Part shown: positions 51,038 to 61,433 of the stretch, piece after piece
Layout of the letters: each line of letters starts with the position of its first letter
Numbering within the stretch: the stretch's first letter is position 1
Assembly: GCF_011064595.1 (NCBI RefSeq)
Contig: NZ_JAALJI010000001.1
Span: forward strand, 620,001-684,000
Length of the DNA: 64,000 bases
Reading direction: 5' to 3'
DNA from: Paludisphaera soli
GTDB taxonomy: Bacteria > Planctomycetota > Planctomycetia > Isosphaerales > Isosphaeraceae
Position numbers and translations under genes: made by a program
The notes under the pieces: model-generated
What the model was told of the DNA's origin: nothing
The model's database searches: none
What the model saw: only the letters and a program-made list of their open reading frames with translations

Positions 51038-51340
51038 TCATCCCCGGAACTTGGTCTTCGGGGCGGCGTCGAGCAGGCTGTGGAAGGTGTGCATGATGTT
51101 GTAGGCGGACAGCTCGCAGAGCAGCCGGGTCACGTCTTCGTGGAGGTCCGGGTCGAGCTGGGGCTCGATCTTCTTCATCAGCTCGACAACCCGGGCCTCC
51201 TGGGACTGAAGTTCGTGCTTCTCGACCTTGCCGTCGGCCATGGCGTCCATGAAACCGCCCAGCTGGGCGGCGTACTCGTGGACCATCGTGGAGTCGCCCT
51301 CGTCGTCGAGCCAGGGCGTGCGGGTCTTGGATTTGGACAT
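51038..51340 (-). CDS. Small hypothetical protein at the end of the PspA/AAA+ cluster, 100 aa
   Basis: 100 residues, ATG 51340. All-helical and highly charged: MVHEYAAQLGGFMDAMADGK, VEKHELQSQEARVVELMKKI and RLLCELSAYNIMHTFHSLLD. No TM segment. It starts 24 bases downstream of the AAA+ gene on the same strand, so it is the last member of the cluster. Small, acidic and helical, it could be an adaptor or regulator of the ATPase, but this is a guess from position only. Confidence 0.65.
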   Translation of the reverse strand: MSKSKTRTPWLDDEGDSTMVHEYAAQLGGFMDAMADGKVEKHELQSQEARVVELMKKIEPQLDPDLHEDVTRLLCELSAYNIMHTFHSLLDAAPKTKFRG

Positions 51341-51364
51341 CGAGTCTCGCTCCGTTCCGTTCTG

Positions 51365-53170
51365 TTATTCCTCGATGACGCGCCGGATGGCGGCCATGCG
51401 TTCCTGGAGTTCGGCCCGCGCGTCGGGCTTTTCCAACCGCTTCCTCCACGCCTCGGGGAGGAATGATTTGGAAGTGCATTCGAGCACGGCGGCCAGCTCC
51501 TGCTTCTCCTTCTCCAGCCCCTGGGCGGAGGGGACGAAGTCGTCGAGCGCCCGCTTCAGGTCCTCGGCCGTCGCCTGCTCGCGATCCTGGGTGAGGGCGA
51601 ATCGCTTGGCCGAGAGGACGATGCCCTCGATGTCGGCCCCGCTGTAGCCGCGCTTGGACAAGCCCTCGGGCAGGAGCGAGGGCTCCATCCGGAACTTGTT
51701 CTTGCGGGCCATGGCGAGGAACATCTCGCGGACCTCGTCGTCGTCGGGCGGGTTGAACAGCGGGAGGTGGACCTCCGCCCTCCCCTGTCGTTTGAGGTCG
51801 ATGGGGAGCAGGTCGGGGCGGCTCGTGAGGAGCATCCAGATGAGCTTGCCGCGATAGCGGGTGTCCCCCATCTGGCTGGCGATCATCGAGAAGACCCGGC
51901 TCGACGTGCCCGAATCGCCGCCACCCTCGCGGTTGCCGAGCGCCGCGTCGGCCTCATCGATCACCACCACGACCGGGCCCATCGCGCGGAGCACCGAGAG
52001 GAGCTGTTCCAGGTTCCCCTCGGTCTCGCCGACGTATTTGGAGCGGAAGTTCCGGAGCTTGACGCACGGGACGCCGACCGAGCCGGCGAAGCACTCGGCC
52101 AGGTAGGTCTTGCCGGTCCCCACCGGCCCGCAGATCAGGTAGCCCATCGGCGCGGCGTCGAGGCGGCCCTTGGCCAGCAGCTTGGCGTCCTCGATGAGCC
52201 GCTCCTTGACGCCGTCGTTGCCGACGAAGTCGTCCATCGTGTGCGGCGGCTCGACGAACTCCACCAGCCCGCGAGCCTGGCGTTCGATGAGCCCCTTCTT
52301 GAGCTTCTTGAGGCTGTCGGCGTCGAGCTTCGCGTGGGCCCTCTCGGCGAGGACCAGCAGGCGTTCCAGGCTGACGAGGTTGAGGCCGCTGGTGAGGTCG
52401 GCTAACTGCTCCGGGCTGAAGTCGGTGAGGTTCCCGAGCTTGCCGTCGCGGCCGTCGAACCACTCGGCGAACGCCCGCCGCTGCGGGGCGTCGGGCATCG
52501 GGACGTTCAGGGCGGCGACGTGCGGGCTGCCCACCAGCCGCTCGTTCACCTCGGCGAGCTGGTCCGACATCAGGCAGAAGGCCATGTTGTTGCGCTTGAT
52601 GTACGGGTTCTGGGCCCACGAGAGGAGCCGGACCAGCCGCGAGCCCAGCGGCCCCGAGAGCTGCGCCAGCTCGCTCGACGGAGCGAGGTACTGGGCGTGG
52701 TCGAACACCACGGCTAGGCTCAGCCGCTTGGCCGGGTCGTCCTGCATCAGGTTCGATTGGATGAGCCGGTCCAGAAGGTCGAGGATCGCGTCCGGGTCGC
52801 GGGGCCAAGTCTTGGGCTCGCCGATCCGCTCGGAGAGGCGGCCGATCATCTTCCGCAGGCGCTCGCCGTCGGCCCCGGCGAAGACCCGGAGGCCGTGGCT
52901 GAGGTCGTGCCGGAGGACGACGTCCCAGTTCCCGAAGAGCTGGGACGTGAGGAAGTCGGCGACGCTCCCGTACGTCGTCGGGGCGTCGCCGGACTGGGGG
53001 ACGAGGTCGTGGACGTTGCCGTGGAGCACGAACAGGCAGCTCGCCCCGGCATAGAACTGCTCGGCCAGCTCCCGCGCCCAGTTGGGGAACCACGCGGGGA
53101 CCACGGCCGCCTTCTCCGGATTCAGCAGGGCCGGCGCGACGGTCTCGACGGCCGAGGGATCGGTGCTCAC
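51365..53170 (-). CDS. Two-module AAA+ ATPase
   Basis: 601 residues. The C-terminal module is a complete AAA+ domain: Walker A GPVGTGKT (348-355), the pore-loop-like KYVGETEGNL (about 379-388), Walker B VVVIDEADAAL (401-411), sensor 1 LLTSRP and sensor-2 region RGYSGADIEGIVLSAK with a C-terminal helical lid. The N-terminal module (about 30-270) looks like a degenerate AAA fold: AVVFDHAQYLAP resembles Walker B, but no Walker A is seen. It sits just upstream of the small gene and 54 bases downstream of PspA, suggesting it remodels PspA assemblies. Confidence 0.85.
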   Translation of the reverse strand: MSTDPSAVETVAPALLNPEKAAVVPAWFPNWARELAEQFYAGASCLFVLHGNVHDLVPQSGDAPTTYGSVADFLTSQLFGNWDVVLRHDLSHGLRVFAGADGERLRKMIGRLSERIGEPKTWPRDPDAILDLLDRLIQSNLMQDDPAKRLSLAVVFDHAQYLAPSSELAQLSGPLGSRLVRLLSWAQNPYIKRNNMAFCLMSDQLAEVNERLVGSPHVAALNVPMPDAPQRRAFAEWFDGRDGKLGNLTDFSPEQLADLTSGLNLVSLERLLVLAERAHAKLDADSLKKLKKGLIERQARGLVEFVEPPHTMDDFVGNDGVKERLIEDAKLLAKGRLDAAPMGYLICGPVGTGKTYLAECFAGSVGVPCVKLRNFRSKYVGETEGNLEQLLSVLRAMGPVVVVIDEADAALGNREGGGDSGTSSRVFSMIASQMGDTRYRGKLIWMLLTSRPDLLPIDLKRQGRAEVHLPLFNPPDDDEVREMFLAMARKNKFRMEPSLLPEGLSKRGYSGADIEGIVLSAKRFALTQDREQATAEDLKRALDDFVPSAQGLEKEKQELAAVLECTSKSFLPEAWRKRLEKPDARAELQERMAAIRRVIEE

Positions 53171-53224
53171 GGGTTCGTGCCTCGATGGGGGAGGAATTTC
53201 GGGGCCGGGCCGGGTCCGATCGGC

Positions 53225-53992
53225 TCAGGGAAGCTCGGGGAGCGGCTCGAGCTGCTTGGTCCGGGCCGCGGGGCCCAGCTGCTTGTCGGCCGGGCCGGCG
53301 CCCACGGTCTCGGGGGTCGCCAGGCCGTTCTCCTTCTCGAAATCGCGAAGCGCGTCCTCGGCGAGGTTCTTCTCGATCGCCATCTCGTGCTTGATGTCCT
53401 CGACCCCTTCGCCCGACAGGTCGGCCGCCACGCGGACCCGGCCCCGATTGCGGTCGATCTGGTCCTGGATGATCTGCTCGGCCTGGCCGAAATCGGTGGT
53501 GACGTTGAAGTTGAACTGGGTGGCGATCTGCGACAGCTCGGCCTCGGCCCGGCTCATCTTGAGGTCGGCGTCGTACTTGGTGATCTTGTGCTTGACCGAC
53601 TCCAGCTTCTCGACGGCGTGCTTGATCTTCAGCAAATTGTTCTGATACGCCTGCTCATGGAGGCCGAGCTGCTTCTCGTTCTCGGACATGTCCTCCTTGG
53701 CGCGGCGGAGGTCCAGGGCGAACTTGGCGGCCCCCTCGCGGTCGCCGGCGTTGAGGAACGCCTTGACCTTGGCCTCCAGGGTGGCGACCACCTTGGAGTG
53801 GTTGTCGACCTGGCGCTGCACCCGCTCGACCAGGGCGCGATACTGGGCCAGGCCCTCCCGACCCTCCTTGAGCTGCTCCACCGAACGGTCGTATTCCAGC
53901 TGCATCTCGGCGATCGGGTCGTAGCCCCGGACCGCGTTGGCGAGCTTGTTGAACTGGGCGGCGATGGCGTTCCAGAGCTTTCCGAGGATCAT
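53225..53992 (-). CDS. pspA: PspA/IM30 family protein
   Basis: 255 residues, start ATG 53992. The N-terminus MILGKLWNAIAAQFNKLANA forms the amphipathic helix that binds membranes. The body is a long coiled coil (DPIAEMQLEYDRSVEQLKEG, LERVQRQVDNHSKVVATLE, QAYQNNLLKIKHAVEKLESV). It is slightly longer than E. coli PspA (222) because of a Pro-rich tail. The family forms ESCRT-III-like rods and rings that repair membranes under stress. Here it lies between the AAA+ ATPase and the giant TPM protein. Confidence 0.9.
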   Translation of the reverse strand: MILGKLWNAIAAQFNKLANAVRGYDPIAEMQLEYDRSVEQLKEGREGLAQYRALVERVQRQVDNHSKVVATLEAKVKAFLNAGDREGAAKFALDLRRAKEDMSENEKQLGLHEQAYQNNLLKIKHAVEKLESVKHKITKYDADLKMSRAEAELSQIATQFNFNVTTDFGQAEQIIQDQIDRNRGRVRVAADLSGEGVEDIKHEMAIEKNLAEDALRDFEKENGLATPETVGAGPADKQLGPAARTKQLEPLPELP

Positions 53993-54086
53993 GGCGTCAC
54001 CCGTGCTTCGTCGTGGAGTGAAGGGAAACCCGTCCGTCCCGTATCGTCTTCGATGGTCGATCCCGAATGTTGGGCCGGTCTGTTGT

Positions 54087-57005
54087 TCACCAGGTGGACT
54101 CGCTGGCCTCGGCCGACCAGGAGCCGGCGGAAGCCTCCGGACTGGGCGGGGGGGAATCGCCCTCGCGTCCGTCCGCGAGGTTGCGGGACGGCTCGACGGC
54201 CTCCTCGGCGGAGGCGAAGCCGCCGAGGGAGGCCCCCGCCGCACCTATCGCAGCTCCCATGCCAAAGTTCCGCATCGCGACCGCCCGCCGCCGCTGCTCG
54301 GCCTCGACCTGCATCTGGCGGACGTAGGACTGCTGGACGGCCGCCTGGTGGGCCTGCCGCACCTGCTGGAGCGAGGCCCCGGCGGCGCGGATCGCCTGCT
54401 CGTAGTCCTGCGCGTGGTAGAGCGACTGGGCCTGGTCCAGCAGCCCCTCGGCCGGCCTGGTGTCGAGCCCCACCCCCATCGAGAGGAACGTCCGCCCCTC
54501 GCGGAGCGCCCGCGCGGCCTCGGCGATCTCGGACTCCGCCCGGCGCGCGAGCCGGAGGTCCTCCTGCGCGAGCCGCTCGGAGTAATCCAGGTCGCGACGG
54601 GCGCCCCGGACCTGGTCGAGCAGCTTGGGCCACTCGTTCCCCACGCGGGTGCTGTCGCTGCCCACCAGGTTGAGGATCTCCTCGGCGCGTCGGAAATGCT
54701 GGTTGGCCGCCGGCCGGTCCTCGCCGTGCCCGGCGAGGAAGGCCTCCACGCGGGCGGCGTGCTCGCGGGCCTCGTCGTATTCCTTGGTCAGGACCTGGTA
54801 GACGTCCAGGTCCGACTGGGCCTGGGAGCGGGCGATGCCGAACTCCTCGCGGGCCTGGGCCAGCGCCTTGCGCGCGGCGGGCCAGTCGGGGAGGGAAGTC
54901 GAGGTCGCCCGGAGGGCCGTGGCACCGGCGTCGACGGCAGCCGCCAGGCTCGCCCGGGCCTGCGGGCCGACGACGTGGTCGTACTGCTTGAAGAAGCGGC
55001 GGACCTCGCGGTCCCGGGCGGCCACCTCCTCCGCCAGGCCCTTCGCCTCTTCTCGGACCCCCTTGAGCCCGACGAGCTGTTCGCCGACGGCGTTCATCAG
55101 CTGGAAGGCCGCCTTCTGCTCCTGGTTGAGTCGGCCGAGCAGGCGGGCGGCGAGCAGATACTTCTGCGCCTTCGAATCGGCGGCCTGTTCGACCTCGTCG
55201 GCCTTGCCGTCGAACGTCTCCAGCAGGGCCTTCGCCTGGGTCAGGTGCCCCTCGACGGCCCGCCACGAGGCCGGGGCGAACTCGCGCCGCAGCTCCTGCT
55301 CGAAGGCGGCGTATTGCGTCATGGCCTCGCGCAGCCGTTTCGTCTCGCGACGGGATTCGGGCAGGCCCCGCTCGACGCCCGCCCGGGCGCGGAGCACCGC
55401 GTCGAGCACGCCCCGGGCCTGATCGAGCCGCTCCCGGGCGGCTTTCAGCTCGGCCGCCGCCAGCTCCGGGTCGCCGGCCTGCAGGGCCGCTCGCAGCCGA
55501 TCCAGGGCTAGGTCGGCCTGGGCCTCGGTCGGGTCGGGGTCGCCCCCTTCCTCGGCCAGCGTCAGTCCGCCCCGGCGATGCTCGGCGATCTCGGCCCGGA
55601 GCTTCTCAAGGCCCTGCTCGACCTCCCGGCCGTCGGCCAGCCGCGCGGCCACGTCCGACGCCCGCCGGCCCAGCGCCTCGGCGTCGGCCCGGGCCTGGTC
55701 CAGGACGGCCTTCGAGCCGATGGGGTCGGGGACGATCAGGGCTTCGGCCCGACCCGACTGGGCGGCGAGGCGGTCGATCTCGGGTTGGTAGGGGACGATC
55801 GGCAGGCCGGCGGACCGCACGGCCTCCACGGCCTCGCTCGCGCGGGCACGGCCCTCCGAAAGCGCCCGCGCGGCCGCCCGGGCCTCCTCGTGCGAGGCGT
55901 TGAGCCGGTCCATGACGACGGCGCACGCCTGCGCGCCCTGCTCGACCTCGTCGAAGACCTTCGCGTCCGAGACCAACTTGTCGGCCTCGGCCACCGCGGA
56001 GGACCCGCGAGCGGCCTGCTTCTCCGCCTTGTCGACGACGTCCATGACCTCCAGCCAGCGGTCCCAGAGCCGTCGCAGGTCTTCCTGGACCTTCTCGTAG
56101 AGGCTGAGCGTGTCCCCGGTCATCGGCTCGGTGAAGTCCGGGTCCTCCACGGGGAGCGACCCGATCCGGGCCTTCAGCCCATCGAGCCGATCCATCATCG
56201 CGACGGCCTTCCCCTTGTAATCCTTGAGCTTCGAGCGGAACGCCCCCCGGGCCCGACGCCTCCCCGCCCAGACCAGGCCCGCCGCGATCAGCGCGATGGC
56301 GACGAACGACCCGACGACGGCCCAGGCCGCATCCCGACCCGACGTCGAGGGCGAAGGCAAGGGAGCCTCGACCGCCCTGCTCGCGGTCGTCGAGGTTGGA
56401 GCCGCGACCTCGCTCGGGGCCGCCGGGACGAGCGCGACGGGGGCCTGCTCGGCGGTCCGCGCCGCGACGAACTCGTCGATGCCGGTCAGGAGCGCGACCA
56501 GCGCCTCCGGATACTCCCCCTGCCGGGCGAGCGGGATGAACTTCGGCCTGACGATCTCGGCGTCGATCGCCGCCCCCGTCAGCCCGTACCGCCCGGCGAG
56601 CGTCGCGCCGGGCAGGGTGACCACCTGGCGATTGTCCAGCGCCGTCACCACGATCGTCGCCCGCTCGGGGTCGAGGGACAGGTCCTGGCCCTTCGCCTCG
56701 GCGCGCCAGGCGTCGCGGAGCCGCTCGGCGTAGTCGAGCGTCGCGTGCTCCCCGTCGCCGGCGGACTTCACCACGGCGACGTAATAAGTCCGATCCGACC
56801 GCGCTTCGAGGGCCTGGATCGCCTTCGCCACCGGCTCGTAACGGTCGGGGACGCCGGCGACGTAGAGCCGCTCGCCCGTGAACCGGGGCAAGGGCGTCGG
56901 CTCGGCGGCGAGGCCGAAGGTCGCGACGAGGACCATCGGCCCGAAAAGGACCGGCGAGAGACGAGGCGTCCGGCGCGTCGTCGGAGCGTTCGAGCCCATG
57001 AGCAT
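54087..57005 (-). CDS. Giant membrane protein: TPM domain + TM + ~650-residue coiled coil
   Basis: 972 residues from ATG 57005 (MLMGSNAPTT). ATG 56999 is nearly equal. A signal-anchor precedes a TPM (YgcG-type) domain at about 50-182, recognisable by DYAERLRDAWRAEAKG, ATIVVTALDNRQVVTLPGA, RYGLTGAAIDAEIV and EALVALLTGIDEFVA. Then comes an Ala/Pro/Thr-rich linker, one TM helix (about 227-248) and ~650 residues of charged coiled coil (for example AEALGRRASDVAARLADGRE). A Gly-rich hydrophobic patch (GMGAAIGAAGASLGGFASAE) lies near the end. TPM outside, coiled coil inside, next to PspA, suggests a transmembrane stress sensor or scaffold. Confidence 0.8.
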   Translation of the reverse strand: MLMGSNAPTTRRTPRLSPVLFGPMVLVATFGLAAEPTPLPRFTGERLYVAGVPDRYEPVAKAIQALEARSDRTYYVAVVKSAGDGEHATLDYAERLRDAWRAEAKGQDLSLDPERATIVVTALDNRQVVTLPGATLAGRYGLTGAAIDAEIVRPKFIPLARQGEYPEALVALLTGIDEFVAARTAEQAPVALVPAAPSEVAAPTSTTASRAVEAPLPSPSTSGRDAAWAVVGSFVAIALIAAGLVWAGRRRARGAFRSKLKDYKGKAVAMMDRLDGLKARIGSLPVEDPDFTEPMTGDTLSLYEKVQEDLRRLWDRWLEVMDVVDKAEKQAARGSSAVAEADKLVSDAKVFDEVEQGAQACAVVMDRLNASHEEARAAARALSEGRARASEAVEAVRSAGLPIVPYQPEIDRLAAQSGRAEALIVPDPIGSKAVLDQARADAEALGRRASDVAARLADGREVEQGLEKLRAEIAEHRRGGLTLAEEGGDPDPTEAQADLALDRLRAALQAGDPELAAAELKAARERLDQARGVLDAVLRARAGVERGLPESRRETKRLREAMTQYAAFEQELRREFAPASWRAVEGHLTQAKALLETFDGKADEVEQAADSKAQKYLLAARLLGRLNQEQKAAFQLMNAVGEQLVGLKGVREEAKGLAEEVAARDREVRRFFKQYDHVVGPQARASLAAAVDAGATALRATSTSLPDWPAARKALAQAREEFGIARSQAQSDLDVYQVLTKEYDEAREHAARVEAFLAGHGEDRPAANQHFRRAEEILNLVGSDSTRVGNEWPKLLDQVRGARRDLDYSERLAQEDLRLARRAESEIAEAARALREGRTFLSMGVGLDTRPAEGLLDQAQSLYHAQDYEQAIRAAGASLQQVRQAHQAAVQQSYVRQMQVEAEQRRRAVAMRNFGMGAAIGAAGASLGGFASAEEAVEPSRNLADGREGDSPPPSPEASAGSWSAEASESTW

Positions 57006-57381: not shown

Positions 57382-58428
57382 ATGAAGAAGTTCGCGAAGC
57401 ATGTGTTGGGCCTCTGCATCCTGGGCGCCGTCTCCTCTCCGATGACGGCCAGAGCCGACCTCCTCACCACCTGGAACTTGATCACGACCGGCAACCTGTA
57501 CGCCGCGAACGACGCCCAGGGGGGCGTCCGGGTCGGCGGGAACATGTACGTCCAGAACACCTTCGAGGCCGCGGCCAACCTGGGAGTCCCCTCGGGACCC
57601 GCGCTCGTGGTCGGCGGCAGCATCTACACCGCCCAGCAGAACCCCAACCCCGGGACCGTGAAGGTCAACAACGGCGGCGCGGTGATCGGCGGCACGGTCA
57701 ACGGCGGGACCACGAACAAGAACCAGAACGGCCAGGCCATCGTCGTCTCCCAGTCGCAGGGCGGGACGGTCGGCTTCGACTCGTCGGTCGCGGGAATCGG
57801 GGCGGCCGACTACGCCGAGTTGAAGGCGAACTCGGCCGGATTCCTGGCGATGGCGTCCACCGGCGGGACGGTCGTGATCCCGTCCCCCGCCGGCCAGGAC
57901 GGGCCGGCCTCGTTCACCCTGACGAGCGCGAACTTCGACGCCCTCGGCAACGCCGTGTTCAACCTCGACGGCGAGTCGCTCTTCGAGAACGCGAAGGTCC
58001 AGCAGGTCTCGCTCTACCTGAACGGCCACACGTTCCAGGACGGCGAGTCGGTGATCTTCAACGTCAGCGGCGTGAACATCGACTTCGCCAAGTCCTACAA
58101 TTTCACCGACGGCTTCGTCGGCTCGGTCGCGAACATCATCTGGAACTTCTACGAAGCCGAGACGATCAACCTCAACAACAGCAACTTCCACGGCGCCCTG
58201 CTCGCGCCCGACGCGACGCTCACGAACATGAACACCACCCAGGGCTCCGTCTTCGTCAAGAACCTGGGCACCCAGTACGGCAACGGCATGCGGGCCGAGG
58301 TCCACACCCCGTACTACCGCGGCTACGTCCCCGGGACGACCGCAGTCCCCGAGCCCTCCAGCCTGGCGATGGCCGGCCTGGCCGTCCTCGCGGGCGCGGC
58401 CTGGAAGGGCCGCCGCCGATCGGCCTGA
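57382..58428 (+). CDS. Choice-of-anchor-A PEP-CTERM protein, copy 1
   Basis: 348 residues. Signal peptide MKKFAKHVLGLCILGAVSSP with cleavage near ARA. A choice-of-anchor-A domain follows (DLLTTWNLITTGNLYAAND, VRVGGNMYVQNTFEAA, IIWNFYEAETINLNNSNFHG and ALLAPDATLTNMN). The PEP-CTERM tail is AVPEPSSLAMAGLAVLAGA followed by AAWKGRRR. It is predicted to be exported and exosortase-processed. Its tandem partner at 58680 shares the same domain order and many blocks, so the pair is a duplication. Confidence 0.87.
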   Translation: MKKFAKHVLGLCILGAVSSPMTARADLLTTWNLITTGNLYAANDAQGGVRVGGNMYVQNTFEAAANLGVPSGPALVVGGSIYTAQQNPNPGTVKVNNGGAVIGGTVNGGTTNKNQNGQAIVVSQSQGGTVGFDSSVAGIGAADYAELKANSAGFLAMASTGGTVVIPSPAGQDGPASFTLTSANFDALGNAVFNLDGESLFENAKVQQVSLYLNGHTFQDGESVIFNVSGVNIDFAKSYNFTDGFVGSVANIIWNFYEAETINLNNSNFHGALLAPDATLTNMNTTQGSVFVKNLGTQYGNGMRAEVHTPYYRGYVPGTTAVPEPSSLAMAGLAVLAGAAWKGRRRSA

Positions 58429-58486: not shown

Positions 58487-58679
58487 CGCTGCGCGGCGGC
58501 GCCTGGCGTCTCGCCGCGCCGTCGCCGGCTCGCGATCTGGCGGGAATTCTTGCCATCCTTTCATCCGCGGCCTAATGGTTGAGGAGACGATGACGTCGCG
58601 GGCGAGGAAAGACCGGCCACCCTTCGGAGCCGAAGGGGCCCTCCTCCGTGATCGCCGTCGCGGGCCTACGGAGAGTCGT

Positions 58680-59723
58680 ATGACGAAGCGTGCGAAGGTC
58701 GGTTTGATCCTCTCCCTGACGACCATGGCTTCGACGGTCGCCGCCACGCCGTCGCGGGCGGACCTGCTGACGAACTGGAGCCTGGTCACCACCGGCGACC
58801 TCTACGCGGGCCACAACGTCCAGGGGACCGTGCGGGTCGGGGGCGGCCTGTACGTCCAGAATTCGTTCGAGGTCGCCTCGAAGCCGAGTTCCCCCGAGCT
58901 GAAGTATCCGTCCCTGCTGGTGGGCGGCGACGTGAAGGCGGGCAAGAACCCGGAGACCGTCAAGATCCTCCGGGGCGACGGCGTGATCGGCGGCACGATC
59001 AACGGGGCGTCCGACAACAAGGCCAGGATCGTCTCGGCCCGCGACGGGGGGGTCGTCAAGGTCGATCCCGGGGCGGCCGGGTTCGCGGCCTCGGACGACA
59101 AGGAGCTGAAAGCCTCCTCGCAGGCCTTCAAGGAGATGAAAGACGAAGGCCAGTCGGTCGTCCTGTCGACGAAGCAGGTCGACACCGCGCGGTTCACCGT
59201 GATGACGGTGGACTCGAACGGCAACGCGGTCTTCCACGTCGACGGCGAGCGGCTGTTCGAGAACAACAAGGTCCGGGGCTTCTCGCTGGACCTCAACGGC
59301 TACAAGTTCGGCGAGGGCCAGTCGGTCGTCTTCAACGTGAGCGGCGTGGACCTCGATTTCCGCAACGGCCTGAATTTCGACGGCGCGTTCCGCACCTCGT
59401 TCTCGAACATCCTCTGGAACTTCTACGAGGCCGGGGAGATCGACCTCAACCGCAACAACTTCGCCGGCACGCTCCTCGCCCCCGACGCCCTGCTGACCGA
59501 CAACAACACCATCGACGGATCGGTCTTCGTCAAATCGTTCGGCACCAGTTACAAGGATGGGATGGGGGCCGGGATCCGAGGGCCGCTGTACGCCGGGTAC
59601 GACCCCTCGACGGTGCGGATCGAATCCGTCCCGATCCCGAGCACCCCCGAGCCCTCCGGCCTGGCGATGGCCGGCCTGGCCGTCCTCTGCGGGGCGGCCT
59701 GGCGGATCAGGCGACGAGTCTGA
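58680..59723 (+). CDS. Choice-of-anchor-A PEP-CTERM protein, copy 2
   Basis: 347 residues from ATG 58680 (MTKRAKVGLILSL), GGAG about 6 bases upstream. Earlier in-frame ATGs (58575, 58590) would prefix a basic stretch and no signal peptide. Blocks shared with copy 1: ADLLTNWSLVTTGDLYAG, VRVGGGLYVQNSFEV, NILWNFYEAGEIDLNRNNF, TLLAPDALLTDNNT and the tail EPSGLAMAGLAVLCGAAW with RIRRR. The middle third is more charged than copy 1 (KELKASSQAFKEMKDEGQ). A tandem paralogue, probably co-expressed or independently terminated. Confidence 0.86.
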   Translation: MTKRAKVGLILSLTTMASTVAATPSRADLLTNWSLVTTGDLYAGHNVQGTVRVGGGLYVQNSFEVASKPSSPELKYPSLLVGGDVKAGKNPETVKILRGDGVIGGTINGASDNKARIVSARDGGVVKVDPGAAGFAASDDKELKASSQAFKEMKDEGQSVVLSTKQVDTARFTVMTVDSNGNAVFHVDGERLFENNKVRGFSLDLNGYKFGEGQSVVFNVSGVDLDFRNGLNFDGAFRTSFSNILWNFYEAGEIDLNRNNFAGTLLAPDALLTDNNTIDGSVFVKSFGTSYKDGMGAGIRGPLYAGYDPSTVRIESVPIPSTPEPSGLAMAGLAVLCGAAWRIRRRV

Positions 59724-59834: not shown

Positions 59835-60092
59835 CAGGCCCTTGGCCGGGCGATCCCGTCGGTGTAGCCTGAAATGACTGGACAGGGCTCGAGCCTCGGC
59901 CCGACTCTCCCCAGGAGGGGCCGGGCGACGTCGCCCCCCCGCGATCGCCTTCCGCAAGGCGAGGCGTCAAACTTCAGGTCCCCGATCGTGCGAGCGCCCC
60001 CCCTTTCACCGGCCGGGGCGAGGCCGGGGGCTCGTCGGCGGACCCGTCCACTTCGTCGACGCACCGAGATAGGGACCAGCCGGGAGACGACC

Positions 60093-61433
60093 ATGTCGTT
60101 CCGCGGATTGTTCATCGCCGTCATGCTCAGCACGGCGCTCATCGTGTCGGCCTTCATGCTGCAATCCCGGAGGCCGAGGCAAGAGATCGCGAGGCCTACG
60201 GCCGACCTCGTGAAGGCCACCGGCAAGTGCGCCGACTGCCACCGCCACGAGACCTCGGCCGTGGTGCACGAGTATGAGATGAGCCGGCACAGCAAGGCCG
60301 GCGTCAACTGCCTGGACTGCCACCAGCCGAGCAAGGGCCAGGAGCCGTATGACCACAAGGGCTTCACGATCACCAAGAAGCTGACCTCGGCCAACTGCCA
60401 GGGCTGCCACCCCAAGCAGTTCGACGAGTACCTGAAGAGCCGGCACGCCGCGCCGGCGTGGGCCGCCGTCTCTGGCACGGCCGACTTCACGCCCGAGCAG
60501 ATCGCCTTCAGCGAGGCCGTCCACAAGGGGGCCGTGGACCGCCCCGCGCACCCGCTGACGGCCGTCGAGGGGGTCGCGGCCGTCAACAAGGGCTGCCGCC
60601 AGTGCCACGACGTCGGCCGGCCCAACCCCGACGGCTCCATCGGCTCCTGCACGGCCTGCCACGCTCGACACGTCGCTTCGGTCGAGCTGGCCCGCCTCCC
60701 CGAGACCTGCGGCCAGTGCCACATGGGGCCGGACCACTCGCAGCTGGAGATCTATCACGAGTCGAAGCACGGCGTGCTGTTCAACTCCCAGCGGCAGGTC
60801 ATGAATCTGGCCGCCCGCCCCGAGAAGCTCAACACCGCCGACATGCCCGTTCCCACCTGCGCCACCTGCCACATGAGCGGGCTGGAGGGGGAGAAGTTCA
60901 CCCACGACGTGACCGAACGGCTGTCGTACTTCCTCTTCGCCCCGGTATCCGACCGCCGCCCCAAGTTCGAGGAAGGGCGTCGGAACATGAAGGCGATCTG
61001 CCTGAAGTGCCACACCAACCCCAAGATCGCCCAGTTCTACGGCGAGGCCGAAGGGGTCGTCCGCTCGACCAACAAGCTCGTCAAGGAGGCCGACACGATC
61101 ATCGCCGGCCTCCGGAAGGAGGGGTTGCTCACCGACGAGCCGTTCGACGAGCCGATCGAGTACATCCACTTCGACCTGTGGCACTACGGCGGCCGGACCG
61201 CCAAGCACGGCGCCTACATGGGCGGTGCCGACTTCGTCCAGTGGCACGGCTACTACGAGATCGTCAGCAAGATGACCGAGCTGAAGAAGTCCGCCGAGGA
61301 GATCCGGGAGCGGGCCGCGAAGCACCAGCCGGCCGAGGCCCCGAAGGCCGCCGACCTGCCGGACGACGTCTTCAAGTCGGGAGCCGCCGACGAGCCGGGA
61401 GGCGAGACCCATGCTTCGGCAGCTTCGCGATAA
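60093..61433 (+). CDS. Octaheme cytochrome c, HAO-like
   Basis: 446 residues from ATG 60093 (GGGAG about 7 bases upstream). One N-terminal TM anchor (LFIAVMLSTALIVSAFML), then eight CxxCH haem sites at 46-50, 73-77, 102-106, 168-172, 186-190, 206-210, 256-260 and 303-307. Spacing and blocks such as HSKAGVNCLDCHQPSKG, HESKHGVLFNSQ and RNMKAICLKCHTN match the hydroxylamine oxidoreductase/octaheme nitrite reductase family. Substrate unresolved: hydroxylamine, nitrite or another N-compound. Periplasmic, membrane-anchored. It overlaps the next gene by 23 bases. Confidence 0.85.
   Translation: MSFRGLFIAVMLSTALIVSAFMLQSRRPRQEIARPTADLVKATGKCADCHRHETSAVVHEYEMSRHSKAGVNCLDCHQPSKGQEPYDHKGFTITKKLTSANCQGCHPKQFDEYLKSRHAAPAWAAVSGTADFTPEQIAFSEAVHKGAVDRPAHPLTAVEGVAAVNKGCRQCHDVGRPNPDGSIGSCTACHARHVASVELARLPETCGQCHMGPDHSQLEIYHESKHGVLFNSQRQVMNLAARPEKLNTADMPVPTCATCHMSGLEGEKFTHDVTERLSYFLFAPVSDRRPKFEEGRRNMKAICLKCHTNPKIAQFYGEAEGVVRSTNKLVKEADTIIAGLRKEGLLTDEPFDEPIEYIHFDLWHYGGRTAKHGAYMGGADFVQWHGYYEIVSKMTELKKSAEEIRERAAKHQPAEAPKAADLPDDVFKSGAADEPGGETHASAASR

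Follow-up and report, generated by a model that had tools for sequence, protein, structure and literature searches.

A planctomycete PspA–AAA+ operon with a conserved small protein and a TPM–EzrA-like partner: a candidate membrane-remodelling module

How, and by what, bacterial PspA polymers are disassembled is, to our knowledge, an open question. A cluster of four genes in the planctomycete Paludisphaera soli bears on it: pspA lies between the genes for an AAA+ ATPase and for a long membrane protein with a TPM domain, and a gene for a small helical protein closes the series. The window analysed here is a stretch of 64,000 nucleotides (NCBI RefSeq assembly GCF_011064595.1, contig NZ_JAALJI010000001.1, positions 620,001 to 684,000). 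An initial annotation, made from its letters alone, had proposed four open reading frames on one strand with short gaps, and the frame coordinates bear out its sizes and spacing: TPM protein, PspA, AAA+ and small protein follow one another on the minus strand, with gaps of 94, 54 and 24 bases in transcription order. We favour, at roughly even probability, the reading that the operon is a PspA-based membrane-protection and remodelling module with scaffold, ATPase and adaptor roles for the other three proteins.

Part of this picture is in print. Ravi et al. 2024 (PMC11237479; here and below, papers are cited from the parts consulted) describe PspA beside a two-domain AAA+ protein with an inactive N-terminal copy, and operons with ABC transporter and PBP–OmpA genes; they read such PspA–AAA+ operons as ATP-dependent, Vps4-like remodelling systems. 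The Vps4-like view of the initial annotation, and its remark that such pairs had been noted in bacteria, thus agree with published work. The PspA–AAA+ core is known; the EzrA-like scaffold and the conserved small protein appear to be new, no description of either having been found in the literature passages.

Four genes kept together

The TPM protein is found in 12 of 40 related genomes, belonging to 7 of 33 genera, and PspA of this type occurs in the same 12. By count, the chance of this coincidence is about 2e-7 over all genera and 1e-5 within the 20 genera of the family, kinship being ignored in both figures. The general PspA_IM30 profile matches in 17 of the 40, among them five genomes (G025, G030, G033, G034, G038) with another PspA-type sequence and no TPM protein. 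A full or nearly full AAA+ ortholog is present in 11 of the 12 TPM genomes (the exception is G017), as is the small protein (the exception is G010). The four genes lie together in nine of the 12; G009 has them split over two contig ends, and the contig of G011 begins inside the TPM gene. The initial annotation had held two patterns against a module, namely that the four genes rarely stay together in relatives, or that the TPM protein is conserved without PspA. Neither appeared among the relatives searched. Over all 20 genomes in which the TPM protein was met, 13 have the same four-gene order; one of these, G003 (L036 4504-7742, plus strand), has a frame change in the TPM gene just past the TPM domain, and its PspA, AAA+ and small-protein genes come next as usual.

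The neighbourhood could instead be kept by general synteny within the genus (the window's genome, G000, and five other members), the TPM protein having a separate role. Some flanking genes are indeed syntenic within the genus too, and in G065, from another family, a TPM relative lies directly behind NfeD and SPFH genes (L152 5297-11059, plus strand), and the 18.9-kb stretch around it contains no match to PspA. The G065 arrangement recalls the SPFH partner YdjI of Bacillus subtilis. In the stretches searched, G009, G010 and G018 show none of the genes that flank the operon in the window, but two of these genomes from outside the genus, G009 and G018, keep the four-gene order; four more named loci outside the genus (L157-L160), among them L157 of the cultured Isosphaeraceae strain Aquisphaera insulae, have the same order. 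With TPM protein and PspA also confined to the same 12 genomes of 40, we consider synteny the least probable of the explanations weighed here.

A sample of 294 genomes from the phylum widens the view. Only the best candidates were scored per genome (four for AAA+, two for the TPM protein), so the counts are lower bounds: the AAA+ protein occurs in at least 53 genomes (E up to 1e-60), the small protein in at least eight and the TPM protein in at least four (E up to 1e-6), in one of which a contig end truncates it. The count for the small protein excludes weak matches in four genomes of genus g55 (family f22), with E from 5.6e-5 to 1.1e-4; the only one of these inspected, in G081, is a ribosome recycling factor. 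A PspA match lies in the flanking stretch at 29 of 53 AAA+ places, counted from 55 with G294 and G309 left out.

A TPM protein with an EzrA-like array

The TPM domain scores 26.8 bits against a Pfam cut-off of 22.1. Hydropathy marks residues 16-34 as an N-terminal hydrophobic stretch and residues 229-247 as the one strong membrane helix. Because positive residues (GRRRAR) directly follow this helix, the TPM domain is predicted to lie outside and the helical part inside, and the topology first proposed for the protein, in which a single membrane helix separates an outer TPM domain from an inner helical part, fits this profile. We modelled the protein from an alignment of nine sequences (mean predicted local distance difference test (pLDDT) 80.5, predicted template modelling score 0.45). 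The TPM domain of the model resembles 5anp (Z 16.6, 134 residues aligned, root mean square deviation (rmsd) 2.6) and 7tbr (Z 15.6, 134 aligned, rmsd 2.7); further fold matches of the model are Psb32 (8c7i) and TPM subunits of mycobacterial respiratory supercomplexes (8hcr, 6adq).

The helical array, which begins right behind the membrane helix, aligns over residues 252-809 with EzrA structures: 190 of 194 residues of 4uy3 (Z 14.6, rmsd 2.7) and 502 of 522 residues of 4uxv (Z 14.0, rmsd 10.9). Since unrelated helical arrays may score Z near 13 with the structural aligner, and since Foldseek gave E values of 0.016 for 4uxv and 2.7 for 4uy3 (only the TPM match reached 0.001), this fold match is support and not proof. 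The Pfam EzrA model matches the window's protein at E 2.6e-9 with 36.4 bits, under the cut-off of 39.6, and matches five of the nine members of the alignment. Run on the 40 related genomes, it gave eight best hits that are all TPM proteins, only that of G017 exceeding the cut-off; four of the 12 TPM genomes gave no hit, and three other genomes weaker, partial ones. EzrA was not listed among PDB chains at E up to 10, by profile or by single sequence. NCBIfam models assigned EzrA to one of the nine members (E 0.0093) and SMC_prok_B to four (best E 0.0024), a match that may arise for any long helical protein. The case for kinship with EzrA therefore comes from the Pfam model and the structural aligner, and we describe the cytoplasmic part as a probable EzrA-like spectrin-type array, with the same reservation that this is supported and not proven. 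Of the "huge coiled coil" of the initial annotation, the long inner helical part stands; a plain coiled coil does not, the region being modelled as such an array.

Like EzrA, the septation ring regulator, the protein has a membrane helix followed by a spectrin-type cytoplasmic array, and its predicted fold covers nearly all of 4uxv and 4uy3. It differs in its outside TPM domain, its longer array and its Pfam score under the cut-off, and in that FtsZ_C was not found in its genome. FtsZ_C was in fact found in none of the 40 related genomes, whereas 13 of 14 controls were positive; this agrees with the published record (PMC6952346). An EzrA-like scaffold, an ESCRT-III-like polymer and an AAA+ ATPase might then help to constrict or cut membranes (in division, budding or inner-membrane folds) in bacteria that lack FtsZ. 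The EzrA fold match and Pfam hit, the concentration of the eight best EzrA hits on TPM proteins and the absence of FtsZ_C all favour this idea; we nevertheless think it improbable. The distribution of the TPM protein (12 of 40 relatives, at least four of 294 genomes of the phylum) is patchy, which makes a general essential role unlikely and means that it cannot be a general division machine, and EzrA binds FtsZ (PMC11790237), which was not found here. Equally doubtful in our view is the bolder form, in which an EzrA-like, outside-sensing scaffold, PspA, a Cdc48-type AAA+ protein and a new adaptor would make up an ESCRT-like membrane-shaping or membrane-cutting machine in FtsZ-less planctomycetes, parallel to archaeal CdvA/B/C division.

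For the role of the TPM protein in the remodelling module that we favour, B. subtilis offers a precedent. YdjH, a TPM membrane protein, interacts with PspA and YdjI in two-hybrid tests, and its loss delocalises PspA (PMC8581546). A TPM partner of PspA is therefore less unknown than the initial annotation held, since a TPM anchor of PspA has been published; the EzrA-like version is undescribed in the literature found. The supplements of PMC11237479 (Text S2.2, Table S3) may list the exact combination. Like the pspA-ydjGHI operon (PMC8581546; PMC11237479), the window encodes beside pspA a protein with a TPM domain and a membrane helix, here the putative partner and anchor of PspA. Both TPM proteins also end in an aromatic residue: the C-terminus is W in all 19 C-termini examined here, and that of YdjH is SRGSF, deduced from a printed primer. 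The systems differ in that the four genes of the window include neither an SPFH protein (YdjI) nor YdjG and instead have the AAA+ protein, the small protein and the long EzrA-like array. A Pfam scan of the four genes and eight flanking genes gave no SPFH protein.

Variants of the TPM protein were also seen. In those of G010, G016 and G017 (L041, L047, L046) the TPM domain and the membrane helix are separated by about 280 additional residues, which may form a longer stalk on the outside. The window's genome also encodes a 343-residue paralog of the membrane helix and first helical repeat (G000:C117:78392-79000; L050 9048-10079, minus strand), which has no Pfam match; the same segment is matched in G011 and in each of the five other genus genomes. 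The distant TPM relatives in G065 and G117 have no Pfam match at E 0.001, neither to TPM nor to EzrA, and were found by a purpose-built profile only.

PspA, its ATPase and the exchange of envelope partners

The PspA of the operon scores 37.9 bits with PspA_IM30 (cut-off 33.9) and is the only match to that profile in the window's genome; three orthologs fall below the cut-off (G009, G018 and the AAA-linked copy of G011). Its first helix is amphipathic, with a moment of 0.613 against a shuffled mean of 0.22, a value reached by a fraction of 0.0006 of 5000 shuffles. PADLOC gave weak JetC, AbiZ and LmuB matches. A motif at the C-terminus of PspA goes with an AAA+ neighbour: a TPxT...KxLG-like tail, variants allowed, is present on AAA-linked PspA at 72 of 74 loci (exceptions L163 and L164), whereas the full motif is missing from all three PspAs without an adjoining AAA+ gene (G016, G017 and the second copy of G011). 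That second copy in G011 (L049 6863-12730, plus strand) adjoins a PBP–OmpA gene, the TPM-type operon lying elsewhere in the genome. At L045 2443-3252 (minus strand) we noted by eye a PspA-like coiled protein, with only a weak DUF4795 match in Pfam, some 6 kb or less from a distant AAA+ relative that has ABC and OmpA-type neighbours.

A further ending, LPE[VIL], is found on PspA at 9 of 9 TPM loci and at none of the 65 other loci. We considered it as a TPM-binding or MIM2-like motif and dropped both ideas: the TPM loci form one group in the AAA+ tree, so the ending is not independent evidence.

The AAA+ protein matches Pfam AAA with 85.8 bits (cut-off 21.2). Over an alignment of 81 rows, the Walker A core (GxxGxGK), the Walker B DE and R461/R464 of its C-terminal module are invariant; the N-terminal part has HGNVxD instead of a P-loop. 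The initial annotation had proposed two AAA+ modules. The C-terminal one is well founded; the N-terminal part does not match it by profile (hhalign E 0.58), and descent of the two by duplication is without profile support. By profile, Cdc48/p97 and Afg2 lead its relatives in the PDB, and PADLOC gave IetA, TRIP13 and mad8 matches. The resemblance to ESCRT-III and Vps4 lies in an ESCRT-III-superfamily polymer protein that adjoins an AAA+ gene and carries a conserved C-terminal tail; the difference is that this AAA+ is nearest to Cdc48/p97 and Afg2 and has no MIT or Vps4_C match. Without an MIT match it may work like Vps4 but is not classed as Vps4.

To place the operon among its relatives, we scanned a named genome collection with the AAA+ profile and analysed the best 80 of 550 relatives; 78 of these are labelled as planctomycetes, one as Deltaproteobacteria and one just as 'bacterium', and at least eight come from genomes already in our set, as contigs of these. 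PspA lies within 1.5 kb upstream of the AAA+ gene at 74 of the 80 loci (71 of 74 where at least 1 kb of room was available), and the small protein just downstream at 71 (65 of 73 where 500 bases or more were available). The small protein belongs to no Pfam family. Its model is helical (pLDDT 83.5) and found no confident match among known structures, the best values being E 1.5 with Foldseek and E 0.08 by profile against PDB chains. An ADGK motif prompted us to consider a TerB-like or EF-hand-like protein; the 55 members yielded no more than a single match each to TerB and DUF533, at E of about 0.01-0.03, and we rejected the idea. Fifty-eight of the 67 complete small proteins from the 80 loci end in F-x-G, an ending absent from both copies without an AAA+ neighbour (G016, G017). 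The small protein is, by this linkage, a conserved partner of the AAA+ gene. It is not mentioned in the consulted text of Ravi et al. 2024 (PMC11237479).

The envelope partner varies. A PBP–OmpA protein, usually with an ABC transporter, is encoded at 46 of the 80 loci and the TPM protein at nine, and no locus has both. Examples of these sister loci have Pfam matches to OmpA with an NMT1-type binding protein, an ABC permease and an ABC ATPase. From these counts and matches, pspA–AAA–small–PBP/OmpA–permease–ATPase is a common operon: the type of Ravi et al. with the small protein added, to which the TPM version is an alternative. The linkage of the TPM partner claimed at the outset is real, but among AAA+ relatives that partner is the exception. 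The window shares with the Ravi-type operon (PMC11237479) a PspA gene that adjoins, here by a 54-base gap, an AAA+ gene whose N-terminal part lacks a P-loop, with the ABC ATPase, permease and PBP–OmpA genes in sister loci. It differs in having a TPM–EzrA-like protein in place of the ABC and PBP–OmpA genes, which are optional in the class; the small protein is in both versions. At E 1e-30, no PBP–OmpA match was found in the window's genome or in the five other genus members; G006 has a weak one, and G011 carries both operon versions. A quick tree of the AAA+ proteins places the TPM-bearing loci in one group (Shimodaira–Hasegawa-like approximate likelihood ratio test 98), with one change.

Another function is conceivable, in which the AAA+ and small proteins act on the membrane partner (TPM–EzrA-like here, PBP/OmpA–ABC elsewhere) as a chaperone-like unfolding or assembly machine and PspA is the membrane platform. 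Psb32 and the respiratory supercomplex subunits among the fold matches would suit such a machine, as would the invariant W end of the TPM protein, which might be a cytosolic tag, and the fact that the commoner partner is a transporter. Yet the tail motif associated with the AAA+ gene is on PspA, and the AAA+ gene stays with PspA while the envelope partner changes. We regard an assembly machine as possible, though clearly less probable than remodelling of PspA itself.

The features of the operon are collected in Table 1. A promoter scan gave no sigma-70-like site, and the only terminator-like site is on the opposite strand, a count below the mean of 2.4 for shuffled sequence. Divergent from the operon, on the plus strand, are tandem genes for PEP-CTERM proteins with an ice-binding-like adhesive domain (pAdhesive_15; 57382-58428 and 58575-59723), relatives of which lie near the operon in four of the five genus members; a multihaem CXXCH cytochrome gene (59874-61433, plus strand) lies downstream of them.

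Table 1. Coordinates of the operon and of its protein features in the window.
Feature	Position	Strand	Remarks
TPM–transmembrane–EzrA-like spectrin-repeat protein	54087..57005	-	972 aa; candidate membrane anchor/scaffold and sensor
TPM domain, residues 45-187	56445..56873	-	PF04536 above cut-off and model matches; predicted outside the cytoplasmic membrane
Single strong transmembrane helix, residues 229-247, then GRRRAR	56265..56321	-	Hydropathy
Cytoplasmic spectrin-type helical array, residues 252-909	54279..56252	-	EzrA match covers residues 252-809; structure alignment, Foldseek, Pfam
C-terminal tail of TPM protein, residues 910-972, ends in W	54090..54278	-	pLDDT <50; probably disordered
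PspA (PspA_IM30), amphipathic N-terminal helix	53225..53992	-	255 aa; Pfam
PspA C-terminal tail, residues 221-255, TPET...KQLG and LEPLPELP	53228..53332	-	Candidate recognition motifs
AAA+ ATPase	51365..53170	-	601 aa, GTG start; N part without Walker A, C part active-looking, Cdc48-like
C-terminal AAA+ module, residues 300-556	51503..52273	-	Alignment: invariant GxxGxGK, Walker B DE, R461/R464
N-terminal module of AAA+ protein, residues 26-285	52316..53095	-	No P-loop; HGNVHD at possible P-loop place; proposed degenerate AAA+
Small helical protein ending KTKFRG	51038..51340	-	100 aa; conserved family without Pfam entry; proposed PspA/AAA+ adaptor

A model for the module

In the remodelling module that we propose, the TPM–EzrA-like protein would be the membrane anchor and scaffold for PspA, a role suggested by analogy with YdjH (PMC8581546), and may relay an outside signal inward. 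PspA would polymerise on the inner leaflet by way of its amphipathic first helix. The AAA+ protein, with an inactive-looking N module and an active-looking Cdc48-type C module, would grip the conserved PspA tail and disassemble or remodel the polymer, as Vps4 does for ESCRT-III, and the small protein may be the adaptor between PspA and AAA+. The whole is probably a lineage variant of the planctomycete operon pspA–AAA–small–PBP/OmpA–ABC transporter, in which the TPM–EzrA-like scaffold appears to have replaced the PBP/OmpA–ABC part. The module of sensor, scaffold, polymer and remodeller imagined in the initial annotation is partly supported, in that the linkage is conserved and the PspA–AAA+ reading is in print.

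Several observations weigh against this model. The set is incomplete or scattered in some genomes: G017 has the TPM protein beside pspA–small and no AAA+ ortholog, G016 has the genes spread over three contigs, and the TPM gene of G010 sits on the opposite strand at a distance of about 6 kb, no small protein being found in the 20-kb stretch searched. In G065, G117 and G183 (families f33, f63 and f25) the TPM relative is on a different contig from the AAA+ gene. Conversely, G098 has the AAA+ and small proteins and no PspA, and three of the 80 named loci (L172, L198, L203) have AAA+ without PspA despite at least 1 kb of room. Of 15 small proteins compared, those of G098, G164, G286 and G296 lack the F-x-G end although an AAA+ gene adjoins. 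In the ATPase, the N part does not match the C-terminal module by profile, and neither MIT nor Vps4_C gave a Pfam match at E up to 1, a threshold that a very divergent domain could escape. Finally, since the TPM-bearing AAA+ genes form one tree group, a single event passed on by shared descent may account for both the partner exchange and the LPE ending.

For the question raised at the outset, this operon and its numerous relatives bring together, as a defined set, a polymer, an AAA+ ATPase, a conserved tail, a candidate small adaptor and a membrane scaffold. The presence of an EzrA-like array in FtsZ-less bacteria hints that FtsZ may not be the only polymer which such arrays serve, and a PspA–AAA–small core that stays constant while its envelope partner changes between PBP/OmpA–ABC and TPM–EzrA-like suggests a remodelling engine of modular design.

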